Shown here: positions 4,931-63,440 of the stretch, one piece after another
Position numbering within the stretch: position 1 is the stretch's first letter
Layout of the letters: each line of letters starts with the position of its first letter
Assembly (NCBI GenBank): GCA_958296045.1
Contig: CATQHT010000002.1
Coordinates: forward strand, 372,001-436,000
Length of the DNA stretch: 64,000 nt
From: Rhodothermales bacterium
GTDB lineage: Bacteria > Bacteroidota > Rhodothermia > Rhodothermales > Bin80
Direction of reading: 5' to 3'
Program-made: the position numbers and the translations under genes
Notes under the pieces: model-generated
Databases searched by the model: none
The model's input: only the letters and a program-made list of their open reading frames with translations
Told to the model about the DNA's origin: nothing

Positions 4931-7039
4931 ATGCTGAACTGGCGGTCTCTGAGATTGGGAGCGCTTGTGGTCGCCTGCGGCCTTCTTGCTCGATGCCAGG
5001 GTCAGACAGAGGGACAGGCGGACCCAGAACCTGTTAGGTTTGCAAACCTGAATTCCAATTATGTAGGTGATGCGGCCTGCTTCGACTGCCATGCTGAGCA
5101 GTGGCGCGGCTTCCAGGAGCACGGCATGGCCCGTTCCTTCTATCCGATGCGGCCAGACAATGCGGTAGAAGACTTTGCCGCGGTTCCGCTGTTTCATCCA
5201 GGCAGCGGGTACCACTACCGAGTTCTCGCGCGTGGGGACAGCTTCTATCAGGTGGAATACCGCCTAGATGACTTGGGCAACAAGACGCATGAGCTGGTGC
5301 GCAGGATGGACTACGTTGTAGGCAGCGGTAATGCCGCCCGCACCTATCTGACCGAATCCAAGGGGCGCCTCTACGAGATGCCGCTGACCTGGTATACGCA
5401 AGCCGCAGCCTGGGACTTCAGTCCTGGATATGAGCGCTACAACAAGCGCTTCAGCCGCCTGGTGCCAGACCGTTGCATGGCCTGCCACAACAGCTATCCC
5501 GCTTCGGTGCCCTTCGTGGATGGCAAGTACGAGGAAGTCCCCGAGGGGATAGGTTGTGAGCGCTGTCACGGGCCTGGAGAGTTGCACGTTCAAGAGCGCC
5601 TTGAAAGTTCTGAGGTGCAAGGCGCCATCGATCACACGATTGTCAATCCAGCCCACCTTACCATCGACCGGCAGATGGATATCTGCCAGCAATGCCACCT
5701 CCATACGACGGTATCTCTGCTGCGCGATGGCCGCGAAGCGTTTGACTTTAGACCGTCTGAGCGGCTGGAGGACTTTGTAGCGCTGTATTCTGCGCCTCAG
5801 GACGATGTGCCAGGCACTATTGACGTGATTTCACACGCAGCGCGCCTCAAGCAGAGCGCCTGCTTTGTGGTGTCACCTATGACGTGCACTACCTGTCATG
5901 ATCCGCATGAGGGGTTTCGTACCAAGGGGCCAGCATATTTTGACGAGACCTGTATCAGCTGCCACAAGGACAGTCCGGCTCAGGGGCACGGTGGAGGCGA
6001 GAGCTGTTCTGGATGCCATATGCCTAAGGTACCAGCAGCTGGTGCTCCGCACGCGTCCTTTACCGATCACTGGATACGCGACCCGAACCGGCATCTGCCC
6101 AATCCTGTGCCCGCGCACGAGCTGGAGGCCGGCGCACTGGTGCCTTTCTTCGATAAGGACAGCAGCGGATCTACGGCTGGGGCGTATGCTGCACTGGCCG
6201 CCTTGGTTCACGCCACGCAGCAGGCAGACGGCATGCTCTTGGAGCGCGCCATCCAGATGGCCGAGCCGGTACACCTCCAGGACCCCACCGGAGAGCTCAG
6301 TTTTGTGCTTGGTGTTGCGCTTACCAATATGGGGCGTGGTAGCGAGGCGATCGAACCGCTGCGCCATGCTGTGGCGCAGGCGCCCGTGCCCGAGCGTTTG
6401 AACGGGCTTGCGCAGGCGCTGGAGCAGTCCTCTGAGTCGCTCGGAGAGATTGCTGCACTATATGATTCGGCGCTCGCTCGGCAGCCTGCGCTGGCGGACA
6501 TCCGCGTCAATTACGGCGTTTTCCTGCAGCGGCAGGGGCAGCTGCAAGAATCGCTGCAGCAATTCAGGCTTGCTGCTACGGAAGCGCCCCTTCTCGTGCT
6601 GGCCCACACACATCTGGGTACTGTCTACATGCAAGATGGCGCGTTTGACATGGCAGAGGCTTCGCTCAGGCGCGCCATCGCTCTCGAGCCGGATGATGCG
6701 GACGCGCTTGGCAACCTTGGACTGATGTATGCCACTATGGCGGGCCGCCGCCATGATGCACGGGGGCTCTTTGAGCGCGCAGCGGAAGCGGCCCCGCTCA
6801 ATGCGGTGGCACAAGGTAACCTCGGCACCTGGTATCTGAATAATGAATTCCTGGACGAAGCCATTGCGCATCTGTCCCGGGCCGTAGAGCTGGAGCCTGC
6901 CTACCTGGGAGGCAAAATCAACCTAGCGACCGCGCATGCGCGGTCGGGCAACTACCTTCGGGCGCGCCGTCTGGCCCGGGAAGTGCTTCAGGTGGATGCG
7001 AACAACCCAACAGCGCTGCGCATCCTAGCTGCCTTATGA
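4931..7039 (+). CDS. Heptaheme cytochrome c lipoprotein with C-terminal TPR repeats (copy 1)
   Basis: The track ORF begins at 4889, but the ATG at 4931 (MLNWRSLRLGALVVACG) gives a proper lipoprotein signal with the lipobox LLARC. Seven CxxCH heme c sites are visible: CFDCH, CMACH, CERCH, CQQCH, CTTCH, CISCH and CSGCH, at about track residues 64, 196, 223, 266, 333, 355 and 373. The second half (about 430-716) is helical TPR-like repeats (for example ALGNLGLMYATMAG, AVAQGNLGTWYLNNEF). The design resembles c554-like multiheme proteins fused to a protein-binding TPR scaffold. It is likely anchored in the membrane facing the periplasm or surface and moves electrons. The partner and substrate are unknown. 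A paralogue follows directly. Confidence 0.85.
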   Translation: MLNWRSLRLGALVVACGLLARCQGQTEGQADPEPVRFANLNSNYVGDAACFDCHAEQWRGFQEHGMARSFYPMRPDNAVEDFAAVPLFHPGSGYHYRVLARGDSFYQVEYRLDDLGNKTHELVRRMDYVVGSGNAARTYLTESKGRLYEMPLTWYTQAAAWDFSPGYERYNKRFSRLVPDRCMACHNSYPASVPFVDGKYEEVPEGIGCERCHGPGELHVQERLESSEVQGAIDHTIVNPAHLTIDRQMDICQQCHLHTTVSLLRDGREAFDFRPSERLEDFVALYSAPQDDVPGTIDVISHAARLKQSACFVVSPMTCTTCHDPHEGFRTKGPAYFDETCISCHKDSPAQGHGGGESCSGCHMPKVPAAGAPHASFTDHWIRDPNRHLPNPVPAHELEAGALVPFFDKDSSGSTAGAYAALAALVHATQQADGMLLERAIQMAEPVHLQDPTGELSFVLGVALTNMGRGSEAIEPLRHAVAQAPVPERLNGLAQALEQSSESLGEIAALYDSALARQPALADIRVNYGVFLQRQGQLQESLQQFRLAATEAPLLVLAHTHLGTVYMQDGAFDMAEASLRRAIALEPDDADALGNLGLMYATMAGRRHDARGLFERAAEAAPLNAVAQGNLGTWYLNNEFLDEAIAHLSRAVELEPAYLGGKINLATAHARSGNYLRARRLAREVLQVDANNPTALRILAAL

Positions 7040-7118
7040 GGTCCGGGTTGCACGAAGCCGCAAGCCCTCGCTTCCTTAGTGCCAAACCTGCGCCAATGCT
7101 GTGACTGTAGCCATATCT

Positions 7119-9029
7119 ATGACCAGATTCGCCGAGCTTATTGCTGCTGTTATCCTGACCGCGATGTTGCTGGGAGGATGCCAGGTGGCAGAGAGCGGTT
7201 CTCCCTACCGCAACTTGGATGCCGAGTATGTGGGGATGGAGGCATGTGCCTCGTGCCATGCGGACAAGGCTGCGACATATGAGCAGTCCCAGATGGGACG
7301 ATCCTGGGAGCCGGCGACGCGAGCCAACAGCGCAGCGGACTTTGACAATGCGTTACCCGTCTACGACCCGCACCTGGACCTGTACTACCAGGCGCTCGCA
7401 CGCGGAGACTCGCTCTTCATAATAGAGTATCGGTTGGCTGACGGTGACACCATTCACCGCCGCATCGAGCGTGTAGACTACATCGTTGGGTCTGGGCACC
7501 ACACCAATTCCCACATCATGGATGTAGGAGGTTACCTGTACCAGATGCCGCTCACGTGGTATGTGCAGGAGAGCCGATGGGACCTGGCGCCAGGGTTTAA
7601 AGGTCCAAGAAACAACATGCGGTTTGATCGGCCTATAAGGACTAAATGCATCACATGTCACAATGGGATGCCAGAAATCGTGAAAGGCTCCTATAACAAG
7701 TACGATGCGGTACCGCACGGCATCAACTGCGAGCGTTGTCACGGTCCAGGCTCCGTACATGTCGATGCGATGCGGAGCGGTCGTGTCGTTGATGTCTCCG
7801 AAGAGATCGACTATACCATCGTGAATCCGGCAAAGCTGCCGGTCGAGCTACAGTTCAGCATTTGCCAGGGGTGCCACGTGCAGGGCGCGGCTGTGCCCAA
7901 GAAAGGCATGACGTTTGCGGATTTTCGACCGGGCATGCCGCTGGCATCCGTCGAAAACGTGTTCTGGCCCCGCTTTGCGGACAGTTTGCACCAGTTTGTG
8001 ATGGCATCCCATGGGGACCGGCTAACGCAGAGTGTATGCTTTAGAGAGTCACCACCGGAGCAGCCCCTCACCTGCATCACCTGTCACGACCCGCATGTCC
8101 CTATTGAGACGTTTGATAAGGGACGCTATGATGTGGCGTGCCAAAGTTGCCATGCACCGGCAGAAGTGGCAGAGCGGCATCTTGAGCCTGTAGAGGACGG
8201 CTGCGTGAGCTGTCACATGCCGGTTTCCGGGGCCGCAGACATCCCCCATGTCACGATCACCGATCACTTCATTCGTCGTCCTGACTCGGTCATAACATCT
8301 GTCTTGGCCGATGGCAGTGAGCGGGCTCGTACCCGTTTCGTGCGAATGGCCAGCCTCATCGATCCTGATCCGTCGCCAAAGGAGATCGCTCAGGGGTATC
8401 TAACGTACTTCGAAGAGGTGACCAATCACCCGGGATTCTTGGATTCCGCCGCCGTATATCTACGTGCTGCCGAGGAAAGGACGTCGCTGGAGGCGGTGGC
8501 TGCGCCGCTGATCCGGATGCACTACCTTGCCCGGGACTATCAGGCGTTGCTTCTTACCGCCCGCAACATAGCAATGCCTAAGGACGCGTGGACGGCCTTC
8601 CGTATCGGTGATGCTTATCTGGAGATGGCCAGTGGGGCCGCTGGGCTGCCGTACCTGGAGCGGGCCCATGCGCTTGCGCCCGCGACTCTGCAATTCAGTC
8701 GGCGCCTTGCATCCGCATATGTAGTTGTTGGGCGTTTAGCAGAGGCGCTGGCGGTCCTAACTGCCGTGCTTGAAGCCAACGACAGGTATGCCGATGCGTA
8801 CAGTGACCGCGGGTATGTCCATTTGGCGCTGGAGGATTTCATTCAGGCGGAGGCGGACTTGCACGTGGCGTTGGCGCTCAATCCCGATCTTGAGGCGGCG
8901 TTGGCCAATCTGGCTTCCTTGTACTTCAATACGAATCGCCATGAGGAAGCGCGGCCCCTGGTGCAGCGCTTGATAGCGCTGAATCCCACCAACCTGCAGT
9001 ACCGCCGTCTGTTGGCCAATCTTCGGTAG
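7119..9029 (+). CDS. Heptaheme cytochrome c lipoprotein with C-terminal TPR repeats (copy 2)
   Basis: Paralogue of the preceding gene. ORF calling starts at GTG 7101, but ATG 7119 (MTRFAELIAAVILTAMLLGGC) gives a cleaner lipoprotein signal with lipobox LLGGC. Seven CxxCH motifs appear in the same order and nearly the same spacing: CASCH, CITCH, CERCH, CQGCH, CITCH, CQSCH and CVSCH. Shared blocks include YQMPLTWYVQ, ERCHGPGSVH and ITCHDPH. The C-terminal third has TPR-like repeats ending in NPDLEAALANLASLYFNTN. The two genes are separated by under 100 bp and are probably co-transcribed; tandem duplication followed by divergence is the simplest origin. Confidence 0.85.
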   Translation: MTRFAELIAAVILTAMLLGGCQVAESGSPYRNLDAEYVGMEACASCHADKAATYEQSQMGRSWEPATRANSAADFDNALPVYDPHLDLYYQALARGDSLFIIEYRLADGDTIHRRIERVDYIVGSGHHTNSHIMDVGGYLYQMPLTWYVQESRWDLAPGFKGPRNNMRFDRPIRTKCITCHNGMPEIVKGSYNKYDAVPHGINCERCHGPGSVHVDAMRSGRVVDVSEEIDYTIVNPAKLPVELQFSICQGCHVQGAAVPKKGMTFADFRPGMPLASVENVFWPRFADSLHQFVMASHGDRLTQSVCFRESPPEQPLTCITCHDPHVPIETFDKGRYDVACQSCHAPAEVAERHLEPVEDGCVSCHMPVSGAADIPHVTITDHFIRRPDSVITSVLADGSERARTRFVRMASLIDPDPSPKEIAQGYLTYFEEVTNHPGFLDSAAVYLRAAEERTSLEAVAAPLIRMHYLARDYQALLLTARNIAMPKDAWTAFRIGDAYLEMASGAAGLPYLERAHALAPATLQFSRRLASAYVVVGRLAEALAVLTAVLEANDRYADAYSDRGYVHLALEDFIQAEADLHVALALNPDLEAALANLASLYFNTNRHEEARPLVQRLIALNPTNLQYRRLLANLR

Positions 9030-53782: not shown

Positions 53783-55423
53783 ATGTCCGCATCCAACACG
53801 TTGAAAACGTTCGCGTCGCACAACCGCTCGGTTAAGGTGAGTTTTGATAAGCCCGATCAGGTGACGTCCGATGCGGACGCCTTTGTTGGTCGTCGCCTGC
53901 TGGACTTGACGGGCTTGATGTCGATGCTGATGGAGGGCTTGAAGGACTCCCGCGACGAGCGCCGTGTCCGGCACTCGCTGCCTGAGCCGCTGCTGCAGGT
54001 GCTGCTGTCGTTCATGCAGGGATGGGATCGTCTGCGCTCAGCGGAAGACTTAAAGAACGACCCCGCCTTCCGCGTGGCCTGCCGTGACCAGCGAGGTGCA
54101 AAGGTGCTAGAGGCCGAACACCGCTTAGCTTCGCAGCCGACGCTGTCACGCACTATTGACCAGCTCAGCGAAGAGCCCAAGCTCCAGCATCTGGCCGACA
54201 CGGTCACCCGGCTGGGAATGGAGACGATATACACCCGCAACGGAGGCAAGCGCGTGCCGGAGCTGGTCATCGACGTGGATAGCTATCCCGTAGAAGTGTA
54301 CGGGAAGCAGGAAGGCAGCGAATATAATGCGCACTATAGGCACAGGATATATTTGCCTATGGTGGCCACATGCGGGCCCACGGGGGATGTGCTGGGAGCG
54401 GAACTGCGTCCTGGCGCTATGAATGACGCAAGAGATAGCCATAAATTCATCCACCGGATTGCGAAAGCAGCGCAAAAGCACATCGCCGAACGGATTATCG
54501 TGCGTGCCGACGCGGGCTTCAACAGCCCCATCACGTACGAGAGCCTCGAAAACGATGGCATCGACTACGTCATGCACCTGAAAAGGAACAAGAAACTGAA
54601 AACGTTGATGGAGGAGACCGTGGCCCAGCACGGCGGATCACCTACGCACTGCATAGAGCTGACCTATAAAGCGGAGTCTTGGAACCAGGCCCGGCGCGTG
54701 GTGATGGTGCCCAAAACGTACTCCAAGGCCGAGCCGGAATACTACTTTCTGCTCACGTCCTTGTCAAAGGAAGAATGCGATGCCCAGAGCATGGCTGACT
54801 TCTACCGGATGCGAGGCAAAGCGGAAGCACACCACGCAGAGATCAAATATGCTTCCTGTCAGCTGTCCTCGGCGGCGCGCCCCAACATGTTCGAGAAAGT
54901 GGTCAAGCAATCACTCGGAGACGAGAGCGACAGCAAGACCCAAGACGAGAGCGACAACAAGATCCAAGACGAGAAGGCTACCAAGACGGTGCGCCCTCAG
55001 AATGCGGTACGCTTGCTACTGAATGTGATGGCCTATCAGCTGATCCACATCGGGCGCCGCCAAATGATCGCCCCCGACTACTTGGCTCCCAGAAACTGGC
55101 CCTTGGGACTACCGACCGCCACAGAACCCCCACCAACAGACGTTGGTCCGCTGCCAGAGCCAAGTAGCAACGGCACCGCCGAAGCAAACACCGAGAAGTA
55201 CGACAAGCAGATGAAGCCTGAGCCCGTACACGCGCCGCTCATGCATGTGCGCAGATTCAGGGAGAACGTGCTCAAGGTAGGGGGACGCCTGACCAGACAT
55301 GCACGGCGGCTGCACTTCTATCTCGCCGAGTCCGCAAAGAAGCTGTGGGAGACCTTCTGGGAAAACACATGGAAGCTGCGCTGGCAGACCCTGTGCTGGC
55401 CGAGTCTGCCTAAACGGTGCTAA
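53783..55423 (+). CDS. IS1380-family transposase
   Basis: 546 residues. It is a DDE transposase of the IS1380 type, with the block ELVIDVDSYPVEVYGKQEGS (first Asp), IIVRADAGFNSPITYESLEN (second Asp with the RADAGF motif) and a third acidic site in DFYRMRGKAEAHHAEIKYAS. A Lys/Asp/Glu-rich insertion (DESDSKTQDESDNKIQDEKA) precedes the last conserved helix (NAVRLLLNVMAYQLIHIGRR). The gene appears full-length. A deleted copy is at 15742-16055 and a 36-bp end remnant at 11771-11806, so this element has been active in the genome. Confidence 0.85.
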   Translation: MSASNTLKTFASHNRSVKVSFDKPDQVTSDADAFVGRRLLDLTGLMSMLMEGLKDSRDERRVRHSLPEPLLQVLLSFMQGWDRLRSAEDLKNDPAFRVACRDQRGAKVLEAEHRLASQPTLSRTIDQLSEEPKLQHLADTVTRLGMETIYTRNGGKRVPELVIDVDSYPVEVYGKQEGSEYNAHYRHRIYLPMVATCGPTGDVLGAELRPGAMNDARDSHKFIHRIAKAAQKHIAERIIVRADAGFNSPITYESLENDGIDYVMHLKRNKKLKTLMEETVAQHGGSPTHCIELTYKAESWNQARRVVMVPKTYSKAEPEYYFLLTSLSKEECDAQSMADFYRMRGKAEAHHAEIKYASCQLSSAARPNMFEKVVKQSLGDESDSKTQDESDNKIQDEKATKTVRPQNAVRLLLNVMAYQLIHIGRRQMIAPDYLAPRNWPLGLPTATEPPPTDVGPLPEPSSNGTAEANTEKYDKQMKPEPVHAPLMHVRRFRENVLKVGGRLTRHARRLHFYLAESAKKLWETFWENTWKLRWQTLCWPSLPKRC

Positions 55424-55670
55424 GAGGCCACCACCCGGCTTCCTGACCACGTTAACGCACCTCCCCAAGGGCGACCAACCAGAGCCCAGCGCCAAGCTAC
55501 GCCCGCACGACATTAATTCGCCCCGCTGAGCGGCAAAAGGACACCCTGAGCGCGCCGCAATCCCGCGAAATCGCTCTCTCGCTCCACGACTAGGCCCCAT
55601 CAACAGGTCATACCCCTGCCTCCCAGGCATTACCCCTCCACGGCCGCCCACGAATTCCAACTAGTGAATA
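55424..55670 (+). mobile_element. Right end of the IS1380-family element
   Basis: About 245 bp after the transposase stop. The last 80 bp (ACAGGTCATACCCCTGCCTC ... CCGCCCACGAATTCCAACTA then GTGAATA) recur at 15742-15830 (inverted orientation, same relative order) and the final 36 bp at 11771-11806, which defines the element's right end at about 55670. Confidence 0.65.
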
Positions 55671-55897
55671 GTATGGGTTGAAGCGTATCCGTCCGAAAAT
55701 CCGTTTATTTCAGCTGATTAGTGCCGCGCGGAGGCGAGTTTGTGTCGATGTTTGTCGGCAGGCTGCATATTCCACGGAAAAAAACCACTCGTTCCACGGT
55801 ATGGCGACCACCGATTCCACGGTTAATCGACCACCTGATTCGGCGTGCTGAGTCCGCGCTGGATAGCGCTGCATCGTGACTGTTCTGGGTACCATTT

Positions 55898-56677
55898 TCA
55901 CGGCTGTCTGGCGTCAGTTACGCTTGTCTTCTCTGGAAGGTTCTGCCATTTTGGCAGACGCTGTCTCATGGACTCTCCCTTCAGCGCGATGTGGTGTGCA
56001 TTGTGAATGAGGCGATCCAGGATAGCATCAGCGAGTGTTGGGTCTTCCATGCCTTCGTGCCACACACTCACAGGCATCTGGCTGGTAACGACGATGGATC
56101 CCTTCTGATACCGATCATCGATGAGCTCAAGCAGATCCCGCTGGTGCAGCGCACTGATTCGTGACAACCCCCAGTCATCGAGAACCAGTAGGTGGAAGCG
56201 CGTCAACTGCTTCAGCAGTTTCAGGAAGCGTCCGTCCCCGTGCGCGAGTTGCAGATCTTCCAGAAGACGATGCAGTCGGTGGTAGCGTACGGTGAACCCC
56301 TCCATGCAGGCTTTATGCGCCAGCGCGCACGCCACGAAGCTCTTACCGACACCGGTGGGTCCGGTAATGATCACATTGTGATGTTTGCCCACCCAGTCGC
56401 AGGTGGAAAGCGAGGCCATCAGGCGCCGATCCAGATTGCGACCGCGACGATAGTCCAGATCGGCCATGGAGGCCTCTTGGCGTAACCGGGCGCGGCGTAG
56501 GCGCGACCGCAGGCGATTGTTGTATCGCACGATCTCCTCGTGGTCAACCAATAGGCCCAGGCGGTCCATGAACGGGAGCTGTTCCATTTCCGGTTGGGTA
56601 AGCTGATCACGCAGCGCGCGCGCCATGCCATGCAGACGCATCTGCTCGAGCTTGTCAAGGGTAGGGTGTAGGAGCAT
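55898..56677 (-). CDS. istB: IS21 helper ATPase IstB
   Basis: 259 residues. An AAA+ ATPase related to DnaC. Walker A is GPTGVGKSFVACALAHKAC, Walker B is FHLLVLDDWGLSRISALHQ, and sensor I is GSIVVTSQMPVSVWHEGM. The C-terminal block [20 protein letters not shown] is conserved. IstB stimulates insertion by IstA. The frame is intact; the degraded copy at 25506-25885 aligns with its C-terminal half. Confidence 0.92.
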   Translation of the reverse strand: MLLHPTLDKLEQMRLHGMARALRDQLTQPEMEQLPFMDRLGLLVDHEEIVRYNNRLRSRLRRARLRQEASMADLDYRRGRNLDRRLMASLSTCDWVGKHHNVIITGPTGVGKSFVACALAHKACMEGFTVRYHRLHRLLEDLQLAHGDGRFLKLLKQLTRFHLLVLDDWGLSRISALHQRDLLELIDDRYQKGSIVVTSQMPVSVWHEGMEDPTLADAILDRLIHNAHHIALKGESMRQRLPKWQNLPEKTSVTDARQP

Positions 56678-58239
56678 CAGGCCTTCGAGGTTTGGTGAGG
56701 AGAATCCGATTTGGTGTCGTAATAGCTTGGGCCCCGGATGTTGTCATGGTCTATGGGAGGCGGAGACTCCGAGTCCAGCGGATGCTTGTCGAGTCCATTC
56801 TTCAGGATGGACGCGATGCTCCTGTACGAGCGGGTGCCGATAGCGATTGCCCGCGTACACGCGTTTTCCATGCGGCTCTTACCGTAGATGCGAGCCAAGC
56901 GGAGCAGGCCCATGAGCGTGCGGTAACGAATCAGCGGGTGCCGCTCAGCATTGATGATCTGCCGCACGATATTGTGTGTGTCCGGCCCGATGCGTTCGGC
57001 CTCGGTTACGAAGCGGCTCATATCGTTCATTTGGCGTTGGGCGTCCGGCATGTGTTCATCCTTGGTGGTGACCCCTTTCTGGTGGCTACGCGGGTGCGTC
57101 GCCACCCGTTTGTCGTCAAAAAATACCTCAAGGGTGGTATCTGTAAGGCGAACCTGTACCGAACACCCTACATATCGATAAGGAACGCTATAACGGTGCC
57201 AGCACACCTCGATGTGCGCATCTCTGTGCACCTTGGCTTTGCGCCACTCCGCGTGCTCGTACGGCTCCGCCGGCAAGGGCTTCATCGCTGATCGCTCCCA
57301 CGTGTCAAACCAGCTCTTACGACTGCCTTCCAGCTTCTGAAAAGGCCGCTCGTTAAGCTCCTTCAGATGAACACGAATGTGCCGGTTCACGTGCGCTAGA
57401 CCGATGAAACGCTTATCGCTTAACGGAGCCAGAATGCGCCTCTCTGCATGCAACACGGCTTGCTCGACCTTGGCCTTGTCCCTGGGCTTCCCGGGACGCG
57501 TAGGCACAACCACGGTCTTGTAGTGCATCGCAAGGTCCTGATACGACGGATTGATCTCCGGATCGTATCGGTGGGCCTTGCGCACGCCACTCTTCAAATT
57601 GTCACAGACCACATAGGAAGGCACCGCCCCGAAATACTCGAACATGCGACGATGCGAGCCCAGCCAGTCCCCAAGACGCTGCGTCCACGTCGCCTCAACG
57701 TAGAGATAATTGGAGAATCCCAGCACACCAACAAAGATCTCCACCCGACGCCGCTTACGCGTAAGCTGGTCTATCGCCTCCAGGCGCATGCCTGCATAGT
57801 CCACGAAGGCCGAATGACCCGCAGGATGATCCATCGGAACCGTCACCTGGCCGAATTCCTTCTTCCAGGCAGAGTAAAGAGCGCAGAACTTGCTGTAGCC
57901 GTAACCATCGCTGTGGTCCCGCCTGTACCGCTCCCACATCAGGCGCCGCGTGAACCCCTTGACCTGCATCTTACGCTCCACCTCGGACCAGTCCGGCAAC
58001 GGACGCGTCTCCTTGGCAACCTCCGGCGGACCATAAAGCAATGCCTTCAACTTGGCCTCCGGCATACCCTCGGGCAAAGGCCAATGCACACCCGCTGCCT
58101 TAGCACGACGCAAGTAACCAAGTACCGTGCTGTGCGATATTCCCAGCGCACGACCGATACCACGTACGCTCAAATCAGACTCCGCAGACAACCGCAGAAC
58201 GTCCCACAAAACACGCATAACAACCCTCTTGCTTGGCAT
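56677..58239 (-). CDS. istA: IS21 transposase IstA
   Basis: The track ORF runs from 58485 through the terminal repeats; the start at ATG 58239 (MPSKRVVMRVLWDVLRLSAE) gives 520 residues and a normal IstA. A helix-turn-helix (SVRGIGRALGISHSTVLGYL) is followed by the rve/DDE core with GHSAFVDYAGMRLEAIDQLT (first Asp), VVCDNLKSGVRKAHRYDPEI (second Asp) and a third acidic residue in KPRDKAKVEQAVLHAERRIL. The C-terminal Mu-type beta-barrel region is intact. It overlaps istB by 1 bp. Confidence 0.92.
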   Translation of the reverse strand: MPSKRVVMRVLWDVLRLSAESDLSVRGIGRALGISHSTVLGYLRRAKAAGVHWPLPEGMPEAKLKALLYGPPEVAKETRPLPDWSEVERKMQVKGFTRRLMWERYRRDHSDGYGYSKFCALYSAWKKEFGQVTVPMDHPAGHSAFVDYAGMRLEAIDQLTRKRRRVEIFVGVLGFSNYLYVEATWTQRLGDWLGSHRRMFEYFGAVPSYVVCDNLKSGVRKAHRYDPEINPSYQDLAMHYKTVVVPTRPGKPRDKAKVEQAVLHAERRILAPLSDKRFIGLAHVNRHIRVHLKELNERPFQKLEGSRKSWFDTWERSAMKPLPAEPYEHAEWRKAKVHRDAHIEVCWHRYSVPYRYVGCSVQVRLTDTTLEVFFDDKRVATHPRSHQKGVTTKDEHMPDAQRQMNDMSRFVTEAERIGPDTHNIVRQIINAERHPLIRYRTLMGLLRLARIYGKSRMENACTRAIAIGTRSYRSIASILKNGLDKHPLDSESPPPIDHDNIRGPSYYDTKSDSPHQTSKA

Positions 58240-58414
58240 AAGTACCCCTCTTTTGGTAAGTAAAGAGGGTACGATACCACCTGCGCTTGACCTGCCGCCA
58301 TCACCCGCGACAGGCAACAATAACCCGTTTCTAACTCCGCCAGACTGCCAATTTGGCAGGCCCGTTAACCGACCTCCTACACCCCGCCGCCACCGGTCGG
58401 CGCGCGCCAGCTCA

Positions 58415-58500
58415 GGTGGTCGATTTGCCGTGGAACCACTGGTCGATTTGCCGTGGAATCGGTGGTCGATTTCCCGTGGAACCACTGGTCGATTTGAAGC
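58415..58500. repeat. Multiple terminal repeats of the IS21 element (istA side)
   Basis: Four to five related copies of (T/C)GGTCGATTTGCCGTGGA lie between 58415 and 58500, with the variants ACCACTGGTCGATTTG and GTGGTCGATTTCCCGTGG. They are the IstA binding sites at the transposon end. The istA ORF of the track reads through them, which explains its false upstream extension. Confidence 0.75.
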
Positions 58501-58710
58501 GGAATACGCAGGCAGGCTGAGCGCTACAGGGTCGTAGGGACGCTGGGCGCAGCCGGTTGGCAGCTTACCTTGCTGGCGTGACTGTGTTACGGCAGCTGCC
58601 CAAGCGACCTGATGGGTGCTCCAGGGGAGCTAGTGGTGGGTGCACGCAGGGCGCTCGCGTGACGGTGCACTGCTGTGCAGGTCTTGCGTTCAAAAGCGGC
58701 ACAGAGGGGC
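58501..58710. other. Short spacer between IS21 end and IS66 remnant
   Basis: No gene. It probably contains the IS66 right end downstream of tnpC; no clear inverted repeat could be defined. Confidence 0.35.
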
Positions 58711-59575
58711 TTATGCGCTGGCGCGCACGGGTGGGAGCGGCATCTGTGAGGTGGGGGCGCTTTCACGTTTGGTCCACCGATGTGGCAGCAATTCGCCGAT
58801 GGCGGTGGTGTGCGTCGGCATGCGCTTTAGCACATCTTCTAGCCAGGCTTGTGGATCAATGCCATGCAGTTCGCAGGTGCCCAGCAGCGAGTAGATGATA
58901 GCAGCGCGTTGGGCTGCTTTGTGTGACCCGGCATGCAGGTAGTTCTTGCGCCCCAGCGCTAAGGGTCGGATGCTGTTCTCGACGAGATTGTTATCAATTT
59001 CGATCCGGCCGAAGCTTACGTACCGGAACAGCTTGTCCCACCGGTTCAGGGTATAGTTGACGGCTTTGCCCCAAGCGCTTGCTGGCGTGCCAGGGTGCTG
59101 TTGAAGCCATGCCTTGAGTCCTTCCAGGATGGGGACCGCCTCTTTTTGACGCGCTTGGTAGCGCTCGGTCAGCGTGCAGTTCGCCTCGCGCAGCCTGCGC
59201 TCTATCTTGTACAGCTGCTGGATCGTCGTCAGGGCATGCTCGGCCCGTTCCGGATCGCTCTGTTGTGCTTGGACGAACTTACGTCGGGCATGGGCCCAAC
59301 ACCCGTGCAAGATGATATCTGGATTGTGACCAAGTACATTGTAGGCGGCGTAGCCATCGCTCTGAACATGCCCTTTGAAGTCCCGGAAAGTGTGGAGCAG
59401 CCCTTTCTGGTCGCGGCCTTTACGATACTCCATCCACACGAATCGGCGCTCCGGTGACCGGTACACCCAGTAATACCCACGGTGGTGCTTGCCGATCTTG
59501 CTGCGATCCTGCACCGGCATGGTCGTCTCGTCCACGCAGAGGTATCCGCTCTTGAGGGACTCTTTTATGAGCCTT
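58711..59575 (-). pseudogene. IS66 transposase TnpC, C-terminal two-thirds, inserted in a host gene
   Basis: The frame from about 59575 encodes LIKESLKSGYLCVDETTMPV, the DDE first Asp (GYLCVDETT), then RGYYWVYRSPERRFVWMEYR, CWAHARRKFVQAQQSDPERA, a TnpC helical region and the end NTRYSLNRW-like WDKLFRYVSFGRIEIDNNLV with IRPLALGRKNYLHAGSHKAA. TnpA, TnpB and the TnpC N-terminus are absent on the upstream side, and the sequence joins directly to a different gene at about 59578. A defective element, so transposition in trans only. Confidence 0.75.
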
Positions 59576-59577
59576 GG

Positions 59578-59779
59578 ATTGCACTTCGAGGAGCGCCGCG
59601 GTGGGGAGTGAGTGCCCTACAAGCATTGAATTGTCCAAGACAAGCGCCGCGTCAGTGACCGGTGGCGCCGGACTGTTGTCGCCCGCAAACCAGAGCCGCA
59701 GGCCACTGAGCGCAACCAGAGCTGCCAGAAATGACAGGCCAAACCACATGGTGTACTGCAAACGACTAGTCATCCGCAT
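59578..59779 (-). pseudogene. Membrane-anchored protein truncated by IS66
   Basis: An ATG at 59779 overlaps the end of the propeller gene (ATGA-like coupling) and encodes MRMTSRLQYTMWFGLSFLAA, a transmembrane anchor (LSFLAALVALSGLRLWFAGD) and an extracellular start (APPVTDAALVLDNSMLVGHS, LPTAALLEVQ). The sequence then runs into IS66 tnpC. The start resembles membrane-anchored TlpA-type redoxins that in Bacteroidota accompany six-bladed propellers, but the catalytic part is missing, so the identity stays open. The gene has been destroyed by the insertion. Confidence 0.6.
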
Positions 59780-60845
59780 CCTGAGGTAAAATAAAGCGGT
59801 ACCGGAGGATCAAGGGGTTGCCTACATCACCATCAGCCAATGGCTCATGGTCTCCTTGGCTATAGATGTAACCATAGCCTGCGGCTAGAGGCTGGTCAGG
59901 AGTGATCGTACTGCGAGGGGGAAAGCGACCGACGTTACTGGCAACGCTGATTCCATAGTGGTACCCAGCGCCTTCTACCCCCTCCAGCTGCCACTGATCG
60001 GCTAGATTTCTATACAGTACCATACGAGTCTGACTGGTGAGCGCAATGACTGCGTCTGTCGTGAGGTACTTGTCCTTTTCCGCTCTCATCTCCTCTCTAG
60101 ACATATTTCGCTGTATATCCTGGGGCCGCGGCGAATAAAACTCTGGACGCTGTTGTGTTGACTGCGCATCGACTCGCACAGGTATCGCGTCCATGCTCTC
60201 CAGGTACGTGAAGTACGGTCCATCACCAAAACAGTCAATGCTACGGTCCCACTTCCCGCTAAAGGGGAAGTTAAGCCTGGGGAATTTAGGCCATTCCACA
60301 GGGATGTCCCGCAGGCTCTGGAGTTCAAGCGAATACACCGCTACGCTATTATGACTCGATGACGTGATATAAGGGTCAGGCCAGACAAGAAAGAAGAGGG
60401 AATCGCCGCTCGCACAAAATCCCTTAGTGCGGTGGAGCATTCGCCGGGTGGCGCTAATACAGCGGCCATCTGCGGTGAGAACCACCACCCTGTCCCCAAG
60501 GTCCTTCGTGACTACGTGACCCCTACCCGCGAAACGCGCACTATAAGGAGTAAGGTCCTCGTCATCAGGCAAACACTTCTGCGGCGCGTAGGTCCTGATA
60601 TGCTCCCCTGACGACGCAAACAGGTTAACGCCACCCCCTATGAAATCAGTCACCAAGAAGTCTCCCTCCTGATTGACATCCAAGAACATGATCGCACCTA
60701 TGATGATGGATGAATCCAAACGGACGGTGTCCGCAGGAGCAAACAGCTCATCAAATGGCACTACCGGTGCGTCTAGGATCTGACTCTCCTGGGGAGCAGC
60801 AGTACATCCAACCGAAAGCACAGCCACCAACAGCCACAGCCTCAT
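59766..60845 (-). CDS. Six-bladed beta-propeller lipoprotein
   Basis: Start at M12 of the track ORF (ATG 60845, MRLWLLVAVLSVGCTAAPQE), 359 residues, with lipobox LSVGC. The mature protein shows six-bladed-propeller repeats with blade motifs such as IIGAIMFLDVNQEGDFLVTD, GGGVNLFASSGEHIRTYAPQ and KDLGDRVVVLTADGRCISAT. In Bacteroidota, lipoproteins of the BF3164/NHL-like group sit beside small Cys-rich secreted peptides and TlpA-like proteins, as here: the peptide gene ends at 60866, 21 bp upstream, and the truncated membrane protein follows. The role is probably binding or handling of the peptide (inference). Confidence 0.75.
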   Translation of the reverse strand: MRLWLLVAVLSVGCTAAPQESQILDAPVVPFDELFAPADTVRLDSSIIIGAIMFLDVNQEGDFLVTDFIGGGVNLFASSGEHIRTYAPQKCLPDDEDLTPYSARFAGRGHVVTKDLGDRVVVLTADGRCISATRRMLHRTKGFCASGDSLFFLVWPDPYITSSSHNSVAVYSLELQSLRDIPVEWPKFPRLNFPFSGKWDRSIDCFGDGPYFTYLESMDAIPVRVDAQSTQQRPEFYSPRPQDIQRNMSREEMRAEKDKYLTTDAVIALTSQTRMVLYRNLADQWQLEGVEGAGYHYGISVASNVGRFPPRSTITPDQPLAAGYGYIYSQGDHEPLADGDVGNPLILRYRFILPQDADD

Positions 60846-60865
60846 AACCACGACATGCTGGTCAG

Positions 60866-61171
60866 TCATGGGCCGCAATACAGGCAGGACACGTATTCGT
60901 TCGCTCCAGGGTCACAGCACTTCTCGCCAGCCAGCACATGGAATGTAGTGCATGGGCCAAGACAACCCACGACATAGCAGTCTTCACCACACGCATCAAA
61001 AGGCAACCTATGCCAAAGTAATTGCGGCACCGTACTGGCCTGAATGTTCTCAGGATGTGGCACGATAAATGCGGACACAAGGACAACACAGACTAGGCCC
61101 CCGAGCGCGCACAGGATGCGGGCTTACGCAGCAGAGATAGCCCGGCGCGGAAGGTTAACAAAGGTTTTCAT
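60866..61171 (-). pseudogene. Cys-rich secreted peptide gene with nonsense codon in leader
   Basis: In one frame: MKTFVNLPRRAISAA, TAA, then ARILCALGGLVCVVLVSAFI, VPHPENIQASTVPQLLWHRL and a mature part with eight Cys (CGEDCYVVGCLGPC ... KCCDPGANEYVSCLYCGP). Without the TAA this is a perfect signal peptide plus Cys-rich peptide of the NVEALA-like kind (PENIQA at the boundary where NVEALA is found), which in Bacteroidota sits beside six-bladed-propeller genes. The TAA at 61126 interrupts the leader; no ATG/GTG/TTG lies between it and the hydrophobic core, so expression needs readthrough or an unusual start. The propeller gene follows immediately. Confidence 0.6.
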
Positions 61172-61410
61172 GGCATCAAGTCCCGGCGGGACTGATTGGT
61201 CATAGGTTGCCGCGGCTGGCGCGTCCGGCAACGCGACGCTGTGCGGCAACAGGCACTTCGACGAAGCCCCCCACCGCCGAACATGCACTACACGGTACAA
61301 CATGAAGATATGCATTCTGCGAACAAGAATCCTGTGCCTCGGTGCCTCGCCAGCGATTCTAAATTTGGAGCTTTCGGTGGAGACCCGAGAGGTCCAAAGC
61401 GGTGGGCGCG

Positions 61411-61662
61411 CTAGTTTTCCAGAAAGAGGTCCTGCTCACGCTCGGCGCTTGCGCCCGTCACGTTGTCCGTGACCGCCACATGCAGCGTATAAAGACCCGG
61501 CTCCTGGCGTGAAGCATCCAGGATCTGGTAGAGATTCTCACGAGTCTCGGTGCCGGATCCGTCGTAAGACACCGACACGCCCTAGCGCCGACCGCCAAGC
61601 AAGCGACCCAACGTGCGGGAAAGGCCACGGCGCATGTCTTTGGGAGTAAGCGTGTGTTCAGC
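61411..61662 (-). pseudogene. C-terminal remnant of a GWxTD-type or similar surface protein
   Basis: The minus frame reads TLTPKDMRRGLSRTLGRLLG, GGRR, TAG, then GVSVSYDGSGTETRENLYQI, LDASRQEPGLYTLHVAVTDN and VTGASAEREQDLFLEN and stops at 61411. The last block (PGLYTLHVAVTDNVTG) is the final beta domain found in GWxTD-containing exported proteins of Rhodothermota. Upstream the frame merges into non-coding DNA and IS21 sequence, so only the end of the gene survives, with an internal TAG. Confidence 0.5.
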
Positions 61663-61743: not shown

Positions 61744-62450
61744 ATGGTTACCGATCAGCAAGTCAAGCTCCTGTTCAAGCTCGTTAACGGGAAAAAGAGG
61801 GCACGATCAACGGCTGCGGCGAAGGCTGGTATGTCTGAGAACACCGCACGCAAGTACCTGCGTGCGGGCAAACTGCCGAGTGAGATGAAGACCGAGCGAA
61901 CGTATCGCACGCGTCCAGACGCGTTTGCGGATGTATGGGGCGAAGTACTGCCCTATTTGGAGGAGAACCCCGGGCTGGAGGTCAAGGCTGTGTTCGAGGA
62001 CTTACAGCGCCGCCACCCTGGCCGGTTCCATTCGGGTCAGCTGCGCACATTACAGCGGCGTGTGAAGCGGTGGCGAGCCGAAGCGGGTCCTGGGAAGGAG
62101 GTCTTCTTTGACCAGGCATACGAACCTGGTGAGCGGGCGCAGTCGGACTTCACCTGCATGAACAAGCTGGGCGTGACCATCCAAGGCCAGCCGTTTAAGC
62201 ATATGCTGTTCCACTTCGTTTTGGCCTACTCCAACTGGGAGGCGGGTACGATCGGCAAGTCTGAGAGCTTTGAGGCGCTAAGTGAGGGCTGCAGAACGCG
62301 CTCACGCAGTTGGGTGGTGTGCCCCAGCTGCACCAGACCGACTCGATGAGCTGTGCGGTACGCAATCTGAAGCGTACCGAGAAGGAGGGAGCCCCCTTTA
62401 CCGATCGATATGGTGCTCTGATGCGGCACTACGGGATGGATGGCAACTTG
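61744..62450 (+). pseudogene. Second-type IS21 transposase IstA, N-terminal half, frameshifted
   Basis: ATG 61744 starts MVTDQQVKLLFKLVNGKKRA, the typical IstA of the larger IS21 subgroup, followed by the HTH (AAAKAGMSENTARKYLRAGK) and the rve domain (PGERAQSDFTCMNKLGVTIQ with the first Asp, FKHMLFHFVLAYSNWEAGTI). At about 62290 one base is missing: SFEALSEG jumps frame and continues LQNALTQLGGVPQLHQTDSM (second Asp region) and RYGALMRHYGMDG in the next frame. It then ends, replaced by IS110 sequence. It is not related closely to the istA at 56677. Confidence 0.7.
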
Positions 62451-62453
62451 TTC

Positions 62454-63440
62454 ATGAGCGAGCAGCTCAGGACACGCGAGCTGTCGATAGTGAGTCGCAT
62501 TGTTGCGGTAGATGCTAAGGAAAAGCTCTTGGCCCTGGAGGAATCCACATTAGCTGCGTGGCTGGCAGGCATGCTGCGTGGTTACGTGGATAAGCTGGTG
62601 GTCTGTGATCCACGCCAGAATGCGCTGATTAGCAGGAGTGCGAGCAAGGACGACTTAACGGATGCGTTCCGCTTGGCCCGTCTGCTGCGGATGGGTGAGC
62701 TGCGACCGGTCTATCACTCGGATCATCAACACCGCGCCACCTTCAAGGCTATCGCGCAGCAATATCTCAAGCTGCGCGATAGCCAACACAGTCTGAAGAC
62801 CATCATAAAGGCGAAGTATCGGAGAGCGGGTGTCTTGCGCGTAGACGGGACAACGGTTTTCAGCGCGGCACACCGCAAGAGTTTTTTGGAGCAGCTGCCG
62901 AACGCTCCCACTCGTGAGATGGTATCGGATGATTATGATGTGCTGGATTCAACAATCGCGGCGCAGCAGAAGGCGCAAGACCGGATGATCCGAGAGGGCA
63001 GACGGTACCCAGAGATTCAGCAGTTCATGAAGATGCCCGGAGTGGGACCGATCAGTGCTCATATCTATGATGCGTTCATTCAGACGCCGCACCGTTTTGC
63101 GACCAAGCAGCGGCTTTGGCGCTACTGCAGGCTGGGCATTCGCACACGCAGTTCTGCTGGAAAGCCGCTGGCGTATAAACGTCTGGATCGCTCGGGCAAT
63201 GGCGAGCTCAAGGCCCTTAGCTATCGCGCCTGGATGAACGGCATACGCGGCGGTAAGGACTCGAATGAGGTGAAGCGCTTTTTTGAGGCCTCGCTGGATC
63301 GCACGAACAACCGCACACATGCGCGCCTGAATACGCAGCGCAAGATTCTGGCCGTGCTGTGGACCATCTGGAGAAAACAGACAGCCTACGACCCCAACCT
63401 CTTCTTTCCATTGACCCCAACCGCACAAGCGGTCTGCTGA
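62454..63440 (+). CDS. IS110-family transposase, N-terminus fused to IstA remnant
   Basis: The track ORF (62310-63440) starts in IstA. From about 62454 (MSEQLRTRELSIVSRIVAVD) it becomes a DEDD/IS110 transposase: LVVCDPRQNALISRSASKDD, DDLTDAFRLARLLRMGELRP, FMKMPGVGPISAHIYDAFIQ and the transposase_20 block FATKQRLWRYCRLGIRTRSS. The first RuvC-like Asp near the normal N-terminus is not seen, so either the gene is 5'-truncated by insertion into IstA or the start differs. The rest is intact (about 320 residues). IS110 elements have no inverted ends, so the borders cannot be drawn from sequence. Confidence 0.65.
   Translation: MSEQLRTRELSIVSRIVAVDAKEKLLALEESTLAAWLAGMLRGYVDKLVVCDPRQNALISRSASKDDLTDAFRLARLLRMGELRPVYHSDHQHRATFKAIAQQYLKLRDSQHSLKTIIKAKYRRAGVLRVDGTTVFSAAHRKSFLEQLPNAPTREMVSDDYDVLDSTIAAQQKAQDRMIREGRRYPEIQQFMKMPGVGPISAHIYDAFIQTPHRFATKQRLWRYCRLGIRTRSSAGKPLAYKRLDRSGNGELKALSYRAWMNGIRGGKDSNEVKRFFEASLDRTNNRTHARLNTQRKILAVLWTIWRKQTAYDPNLFFPLTPTAQAVC

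Follow-up and report, generated by a model that had tools for sequence, protein, structure and literature searches.

What kind of system does a broken three-gene module in a Rhodothermales genome represent, and what might its surviving part still do? The window, the whole stretch of 64,000 nucleotides that we analysed, corresponds to G000:C2:372001-436000 in a genome of 4.78 Mb in four contigs. On its minus strand, from 61171 down to 59572, three consecutive frames encode a small Cys-rich peptide, a lipoprotein and the 5' part of a third gene. A first-pass annotation had described these as a damaged module with the gene order of the NVEALA-like peptide systems of Bacteroidota, which would extend the range of those systems to a Rhodothermota-like genome. 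The three-gene module and its extent were borne out by our analysis. The possibility that no relative would carry a homologue of the peptide with the same neighbours is contradicted, as such homologues were found, some of them intact.

The damage was also as described. The peptide frame (60866-61171, minus strand) reads MKTFVNLPRRAISAA up to an in-frame TAA in the leader (61124-61126, minus strand) and ARILCALGGLVCVVLVSAFIVPHPENIQA-S onwards after it. The lipoprotein gene is open (59766-60878, minus strand), giving 370 aa from a TTG or 359 aa from the likely ATG at 60845. The third gene starts at 59779, overlapping the end of the lipoprotein gene by 14 nt, and is cut at 59572, so that the first ~70 codons are present (59572-59779, minus strand), encoding a hydrophobic segment at the N-terminus, and the remainder is lost. 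Here it runs into an IS66-family remnant (58513-59572, minus strand; transposase 58711-59535), which abuts and truncates it. Two copies of this 1060 bp of IS66 DNA elsewhere, both 99% identical to it, run on past both its ends and are identical to each other there, and the cut therefore cannot be put down to a clean insertion with an intact IS terminus. We also observed that another copy of the third gene, at L010:9655, is truncated at the same nucleotide as the window copy at 59572 (after ...CAATCCAAGG), with different sequences abutting the two. Further mobile elements flank the locus at 53783-58485 and 62310-63440, namely a DDE transposase (PF13701), an IS21 pair (IstA-like and IstB) and an IS110-family transposase.

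The history of the damage can be read from a second locus in the same genome. A segment of 2086 bp (59569-61654) is 98.6% identical, without gaps, to C2:810291-812376, which carries the same TAA in its peptide leader and an intact third gene of 193 aa. The segment also contains the 3' end of a gene for a TPR protein (61411-61654), which lies upstream and is unrelated to the module. Only this 3' end is present in the window and the gene is complete at the C2:810 kb locus, which shows the direction of copying. What the window holds is a segmental duplicate, now decayed, of a multicopy module specific to this lineage. Since the window and the C2:810.8 kb paralogue have the TAA in common, an error of sequencing or assembly is unlikely and we rejected this explanation; most simply, the stop would be older than the duplication. 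Recoding of the stop as a common rule was rejected as well, because both the stop codon (TAA, TAG) and its position vary between copies, which ordinary decay fits better.

The genome holds six loci with peptide and propeller, and in addition a propeller and third gene behind an IS at C3:1793 kb. A complete triad of this subfamily is found at none of these six loci. Four of them have no usable peptide leader (the window, C2:810.8 kb, C1:118 kb and C2:226 kb); at C2:812.9 kb the third mature Cys is gone and the third gene truncated, and the peptide at C3:1876 kb has lost its last Cys. The propellers are open at all six. Our search for intact homologues in related genomes was successful, with intact, open triads in the relative G001, on contig C94, where the genes span 5895-7826, and on contig C49. 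About 3 kb upstream of an intact family triad in that genome, at L033:205-2497, we observed a second, divergent triad of Cys-rich peptide, propeller and third protein.

Among 114 Rhodothermales genomes the peptide family occurs in 10, all within one GTDB family of 16 genomes, and the third-protein family likewise in 10, all in the same GTDB family. The propeller family, searched at the present cut-off within this one GTDB family, is present in 15 of its 16 genomes, a genome carrying as many as 14 copies, and propeller matches far outnumber peptide matches. By coordinate comparison, a propeller match in the same orientation follows immediately, no more than about 325 nt away, at every one of 26 distinct peptide loci. 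The third genes come after the propellers.

Many module fragments and stops were seen in the relatives. Start and leader were not intact at 8 of the 15 peptide loci inspected, and the propellers of these 8 were open. Broken peptides (8/14) against broken propellers (0/14) gives p 0.002, in a sample where loci outside the window's own genome were often chosen by a strong propeller match and copies are non-independent; some other relatives do carry broken propellers. The contrast stands in the window's own genome, where no propeller-based choice applied. Divergent loci of the same plan were also observed there, at L031:7087-9034 (G000:C3:2697 kb), L084:487-3015 (C1:73 kb), L077 and L076, where other Cys-rich peptides lie beside DUF5128-like propellers and, in most cases, beside proteins with one Cys or a CxxC that are small or membrane-anchored. 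Upstream of another propeller gene, at the reverse-complement start of L082 on the minus strand, a long open frame consists of near-identical repeats (EQVRAFQAAGLGDMSAHELLVLAQNDVDP).

The peptide leader has a basic start and a hydrophobic core with an invariant Cys (G-x-x-C-A), followed by about ten more residues and then [VIF]-x-A. The last of these, PENIQA/S in the window copy, is a plausible candidate site for signal peptidase. The leader Cys sits inside the hydrophobic segment (about 61088-61090 in the window), is invariant in 9/9 aligned peptides and does not lie in a standard lipobox. After PENIQA the mature peptide of ~56 aa does contain eight Cys, as first annotated, spaced C-x3-C-x4-C-x3-C-x10-CC-x9-C-x2-C in the window copy. 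Across nine aligned members the framework is C-x-C-x-C-x-C-xn-CC-xn-C-xx-C with seven of the eight Cys invariant; eight members keep all eight and the remaining one is minus one. The eight-Cys framework occurs once in the window, in none of 20 shuffles, and elsewhere upstream of propellers. Together with the six copies in the same genome and the copies in relatives, this indicates that the peptide is more than a chance frame. When its profile was searched against the PDB, the sole match was an insignificant one, to a defensin-like protein.

Comparison of the paralogues in this genome revealed a sharply uneven divergence. At the DNA level the leaders are mostly 85-98% and the propellers 75-98% identical, and the figure drops to 61-66% across the N-terminal two thirds of the mature peptide (60920-61034 in the window, minus strand, compared with other peptide types); the C2:226 kb copy has lower-identity stretches in its propeller too. 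The variable segment, by 27 sites to 0, and the propeller, by 28 to 9 or 11, divide the four informative copies in one and the same way. The variable segment has thus changed as one piece, by divergence or by replacement, and has remained linked to its propeller. Between distinct loci the dN/dS of the mature peptide is 0.31-0.66. Synonymous and nonsynonymous sites are raised alike (w about 0.6), which fits cassette exchange rather than classic positive selection. Across distinct loci, dN/dS spans 0.36-0.60 in the propeller and 0.15-0.37 in the third protein; with close, little-changed pairs set aside, the propeller range is 0.36-0.55. These values are well below 1 and point to purifying selection on both.

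The assignment of the second gene to six-bladed propellers that are predicted lipoproteins held up. A profile of 11 members matched NHL domains of the TRIM71 type (E 1e-9), and hhalign against DUF5128 proteins of the same genome gave 97% probability (E 1e-10). A fold search matched the Brat NHL domain and two Bacteroides propeller structures, all six-bladed, using a model that is confident mainly in its first half. No Pfam or NCBIfam model matched the window propeller or its close paralogues, and none passed the PF17170 cut-off, a remote paralogue reaching 13.8 bits only. The protein has an LSVGC lipobox, and four further Cys are invariant. The invariant lipobox Cys after a hydrophobic N-terminus is suggestive of lipid attachment.

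The third protein carries a transmembrane helix at its N-terminus and has one invariant Cys, within LGGxGCSxNQ, as well as a conserved TPQV. A low-confidence model (pLDDT 55) places a b-a-b-a-b-b arrangement after the transmembrane helix, with the Cys at the start of the first domain helix and TPQV before a strand. ResA was among the fold matches of this model, at insignificant scores. Redoxin similarity was not found in Pfam, PDB profile or hhalign searches. There was no match by hhalign to genuine redoxins of the same genome, and none in the PDB after the profile was widened to 13 members. A CxxC active site is not present, and one invariant Cys (GCSxNQ) is found instead. From the predicted structure a redoxin-like fold is tentative, and a redox role for the protein would be a guess.

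Taken together, we observe a conserved gene unit with an exported-type leader, a fixed Cys framework, a variable segment and a propeller that is kept as the peptide decays. The reading we prefer, with a probability of about 0.4, is that the module produces a secreted disulfide-rich peptide bound by the propeller lipoprotein, with a single-Cys thiol-disulfide helper, and that the variable segment sets specificity. Sec would export the peptide, cleavage would follow the terminal [VIF]-x-A of the leader, and disulfides would fold the peptide in the envelope, where the third protein may act on it as the thiol-disulfide helper. The propeller may then bind the peptide by way of the conserved Cys framework, whether as a partner, a carrier or a protective protein. 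Specificity would lie in the variable segment, the N-terminal two thirds of the mature sequence, most likely for interaction with competing bacteria or a host. Retention of the propeller fits an immunity or receptor role without proving it. The peptide of the window copy is probably dead; it is probably not made, the third protein is lost, and the propeller alone may still be able to function, for instance as an orphan protein with a binding or immunity role. A broader version would see here a new class of variable secreted disulfide-rich peptides, with a cassette-exchanged specificity region, the propeller as cognate receptor or immunity protein and an expansion to as many as a dozen loci per genome within one Rhodothermales family, and NVEALA as an independent counterpart in Bacteroides. 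We regard this extension as speculative and on balance improbable. The intact triads on C94 and C49 and the sharply bounded variable segment make the function testable.

The state of most copies invites a simpler explanation, namely that this is a decaying multicopy family without a present role, sustained by duplication and IS-driven rearrangement. The lack of any complete triad of this subfamily in the window's genome, the many fragments and stops in the relatives and the IS-rich surroundings all agree with it. However, dN/dS stays well below 1 between diverged copies, the Cys framework is kept over large divergence, G001 has open, intact triads and the propeller is retained in nearly all genomes of the GTDB family, and we consider decay without a role unlikely, if an explanation to be taken seriously. 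Alternatively, the propeller may act by itself, as a ligand-binding or sensor lipoprotein for instance, and the peptide may be an accessory prone to loss. That propellers are far commoner than peptides and stay open where peptides are broken would be expected in this case; against it, each peptide is tied to a propeller and peptide types follow propeller lineages, which leaves a solitary propeller rather doubtful. A phage or defence origin was rejected, there being no PADLOC match and no significant PHROGs match.

The assembly of methylamine dehydrogenase (MauA, MauB, MauD) involves a Cys-rich small protein, a propeller and a disulfide helper. By analogy, the module could encode a similar enzyme from the same three kinds of part, with a Cys-rich small subunit, a propeller heavy subunit and a MauD-like disulfide helper. 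This is hardly credible, as the alignment of nine members contains no conserved Trp or Trp pair in the mature peptide (the residues of the quinone cofactor), the propeller has six blades rather than seven and is a lipoprotein, the peptide is hypervariable, and there was no Pfam match. The remaining alternative is that a true NVEALA system (PF14055) has spread to Rhodothermales. In a Bacteroides-type genome (G329), NVEALA peptides lie directly upstream of a lipoprotein of the same class, on the same strand, at all six loci; one of these six lipoproteins was checked with Pfam and is a TolB_like 6-blade propeller. Both kinds of leader are long, and the segment that ends them contains E and has Ala at the cut. 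A cluster of NVEALA genes in G329 (L100:13201-16224) also contains a Trx-like lipoprotein, and the cluster's lipoprotein carries DSTGCTSCKLQLLRW, locally like GVGCSDNQVKLLRYW, with an hhalign probability of only 1.8%. That cluster has in addition a dedicated signal peptidase I (PF10502), which suggests special processing of the peptide leader. The gene order proposed at first therefore does parallel that of NVEALA loci, but the peptide is not NVEALA by either profile or motif. Neither the window peptide nor its paralogues matched PF14055, no genome among the 114 Rhodothermales exceeded its cut-off, and profile-profile comparison gave a probability of 1.1%. The motif N-[VI]-E-A-L-A was not found at the leader end, where PENIQA, RNFEA, SENVHA and similar sequences stand; the Cys pattern is another one, and the invariant leader Cys is absent from NVEALA. 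We therefore rejected membership of the NVEALA family and hold its spread to Rhodothermales to be very improbable. The proposed extension of range did not survive; what is found here instead is an analogous architecture with another peptide family. Peptide-propeller loci recur in Bacteroides, and among the papers searched none mentioned NVEALA by name and none dealt with the function of such loci.

Returning to the preferred reading of a secreted peptide with its propeller partner, the parts of the module can be set beside known systems. The general plan is like that of methylamine dehydrogenase, from which the module differs in its peptide, which is variable and has no Trp cofactor residues, and in its six-bladed lipoprotein. 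The propeller is homologous to DUF5128/NHL propellers (PF17170) by profile comparison and matches six-bladed folds; it falls below the cut-off of that family and forms a subfamily of its own with four invariant Cys. With the CxxC proteins ResA and TlpA, the third protein would share an N-terminal transmembrane helix, the predicted b-a-b-a-b-b order, a Cys where the first helix begins and a Thr-Pro ahead of a later strand; unlike them it has a single Cys and no profile similarity, and its model is of low confidence. The closest parallel in organisation is with the NVEALA loci of Bacteroides, in which PF14055 peptides go with TolB_like (PF15869) and similar lipoproteins. In both, the gene for a small, exported peptide with Cys residues comes immediately before that for a six-bladed propeller lipoprotein, a genome holds several paralogous loci, and a conserved leader is joined to a variable mature part; one NVEALA locus additionally encodes a Trx-like protein and signal peptidase I. 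In contrast, the module peptide is unrelated in sequence, with a fixed eight-Cys framework that includes a CC pair and no NVEALA motif, and the module has a dedicated membrane-anchored third protein with one Cys. Judged from these comparisons, the likeness is one of architecture and not of peptide homology. That the same plan occurs with an unrelated peptide in a distant lineage suggests that the core of such systems is the propeller and the gene order, rather than the NVEALA motif.
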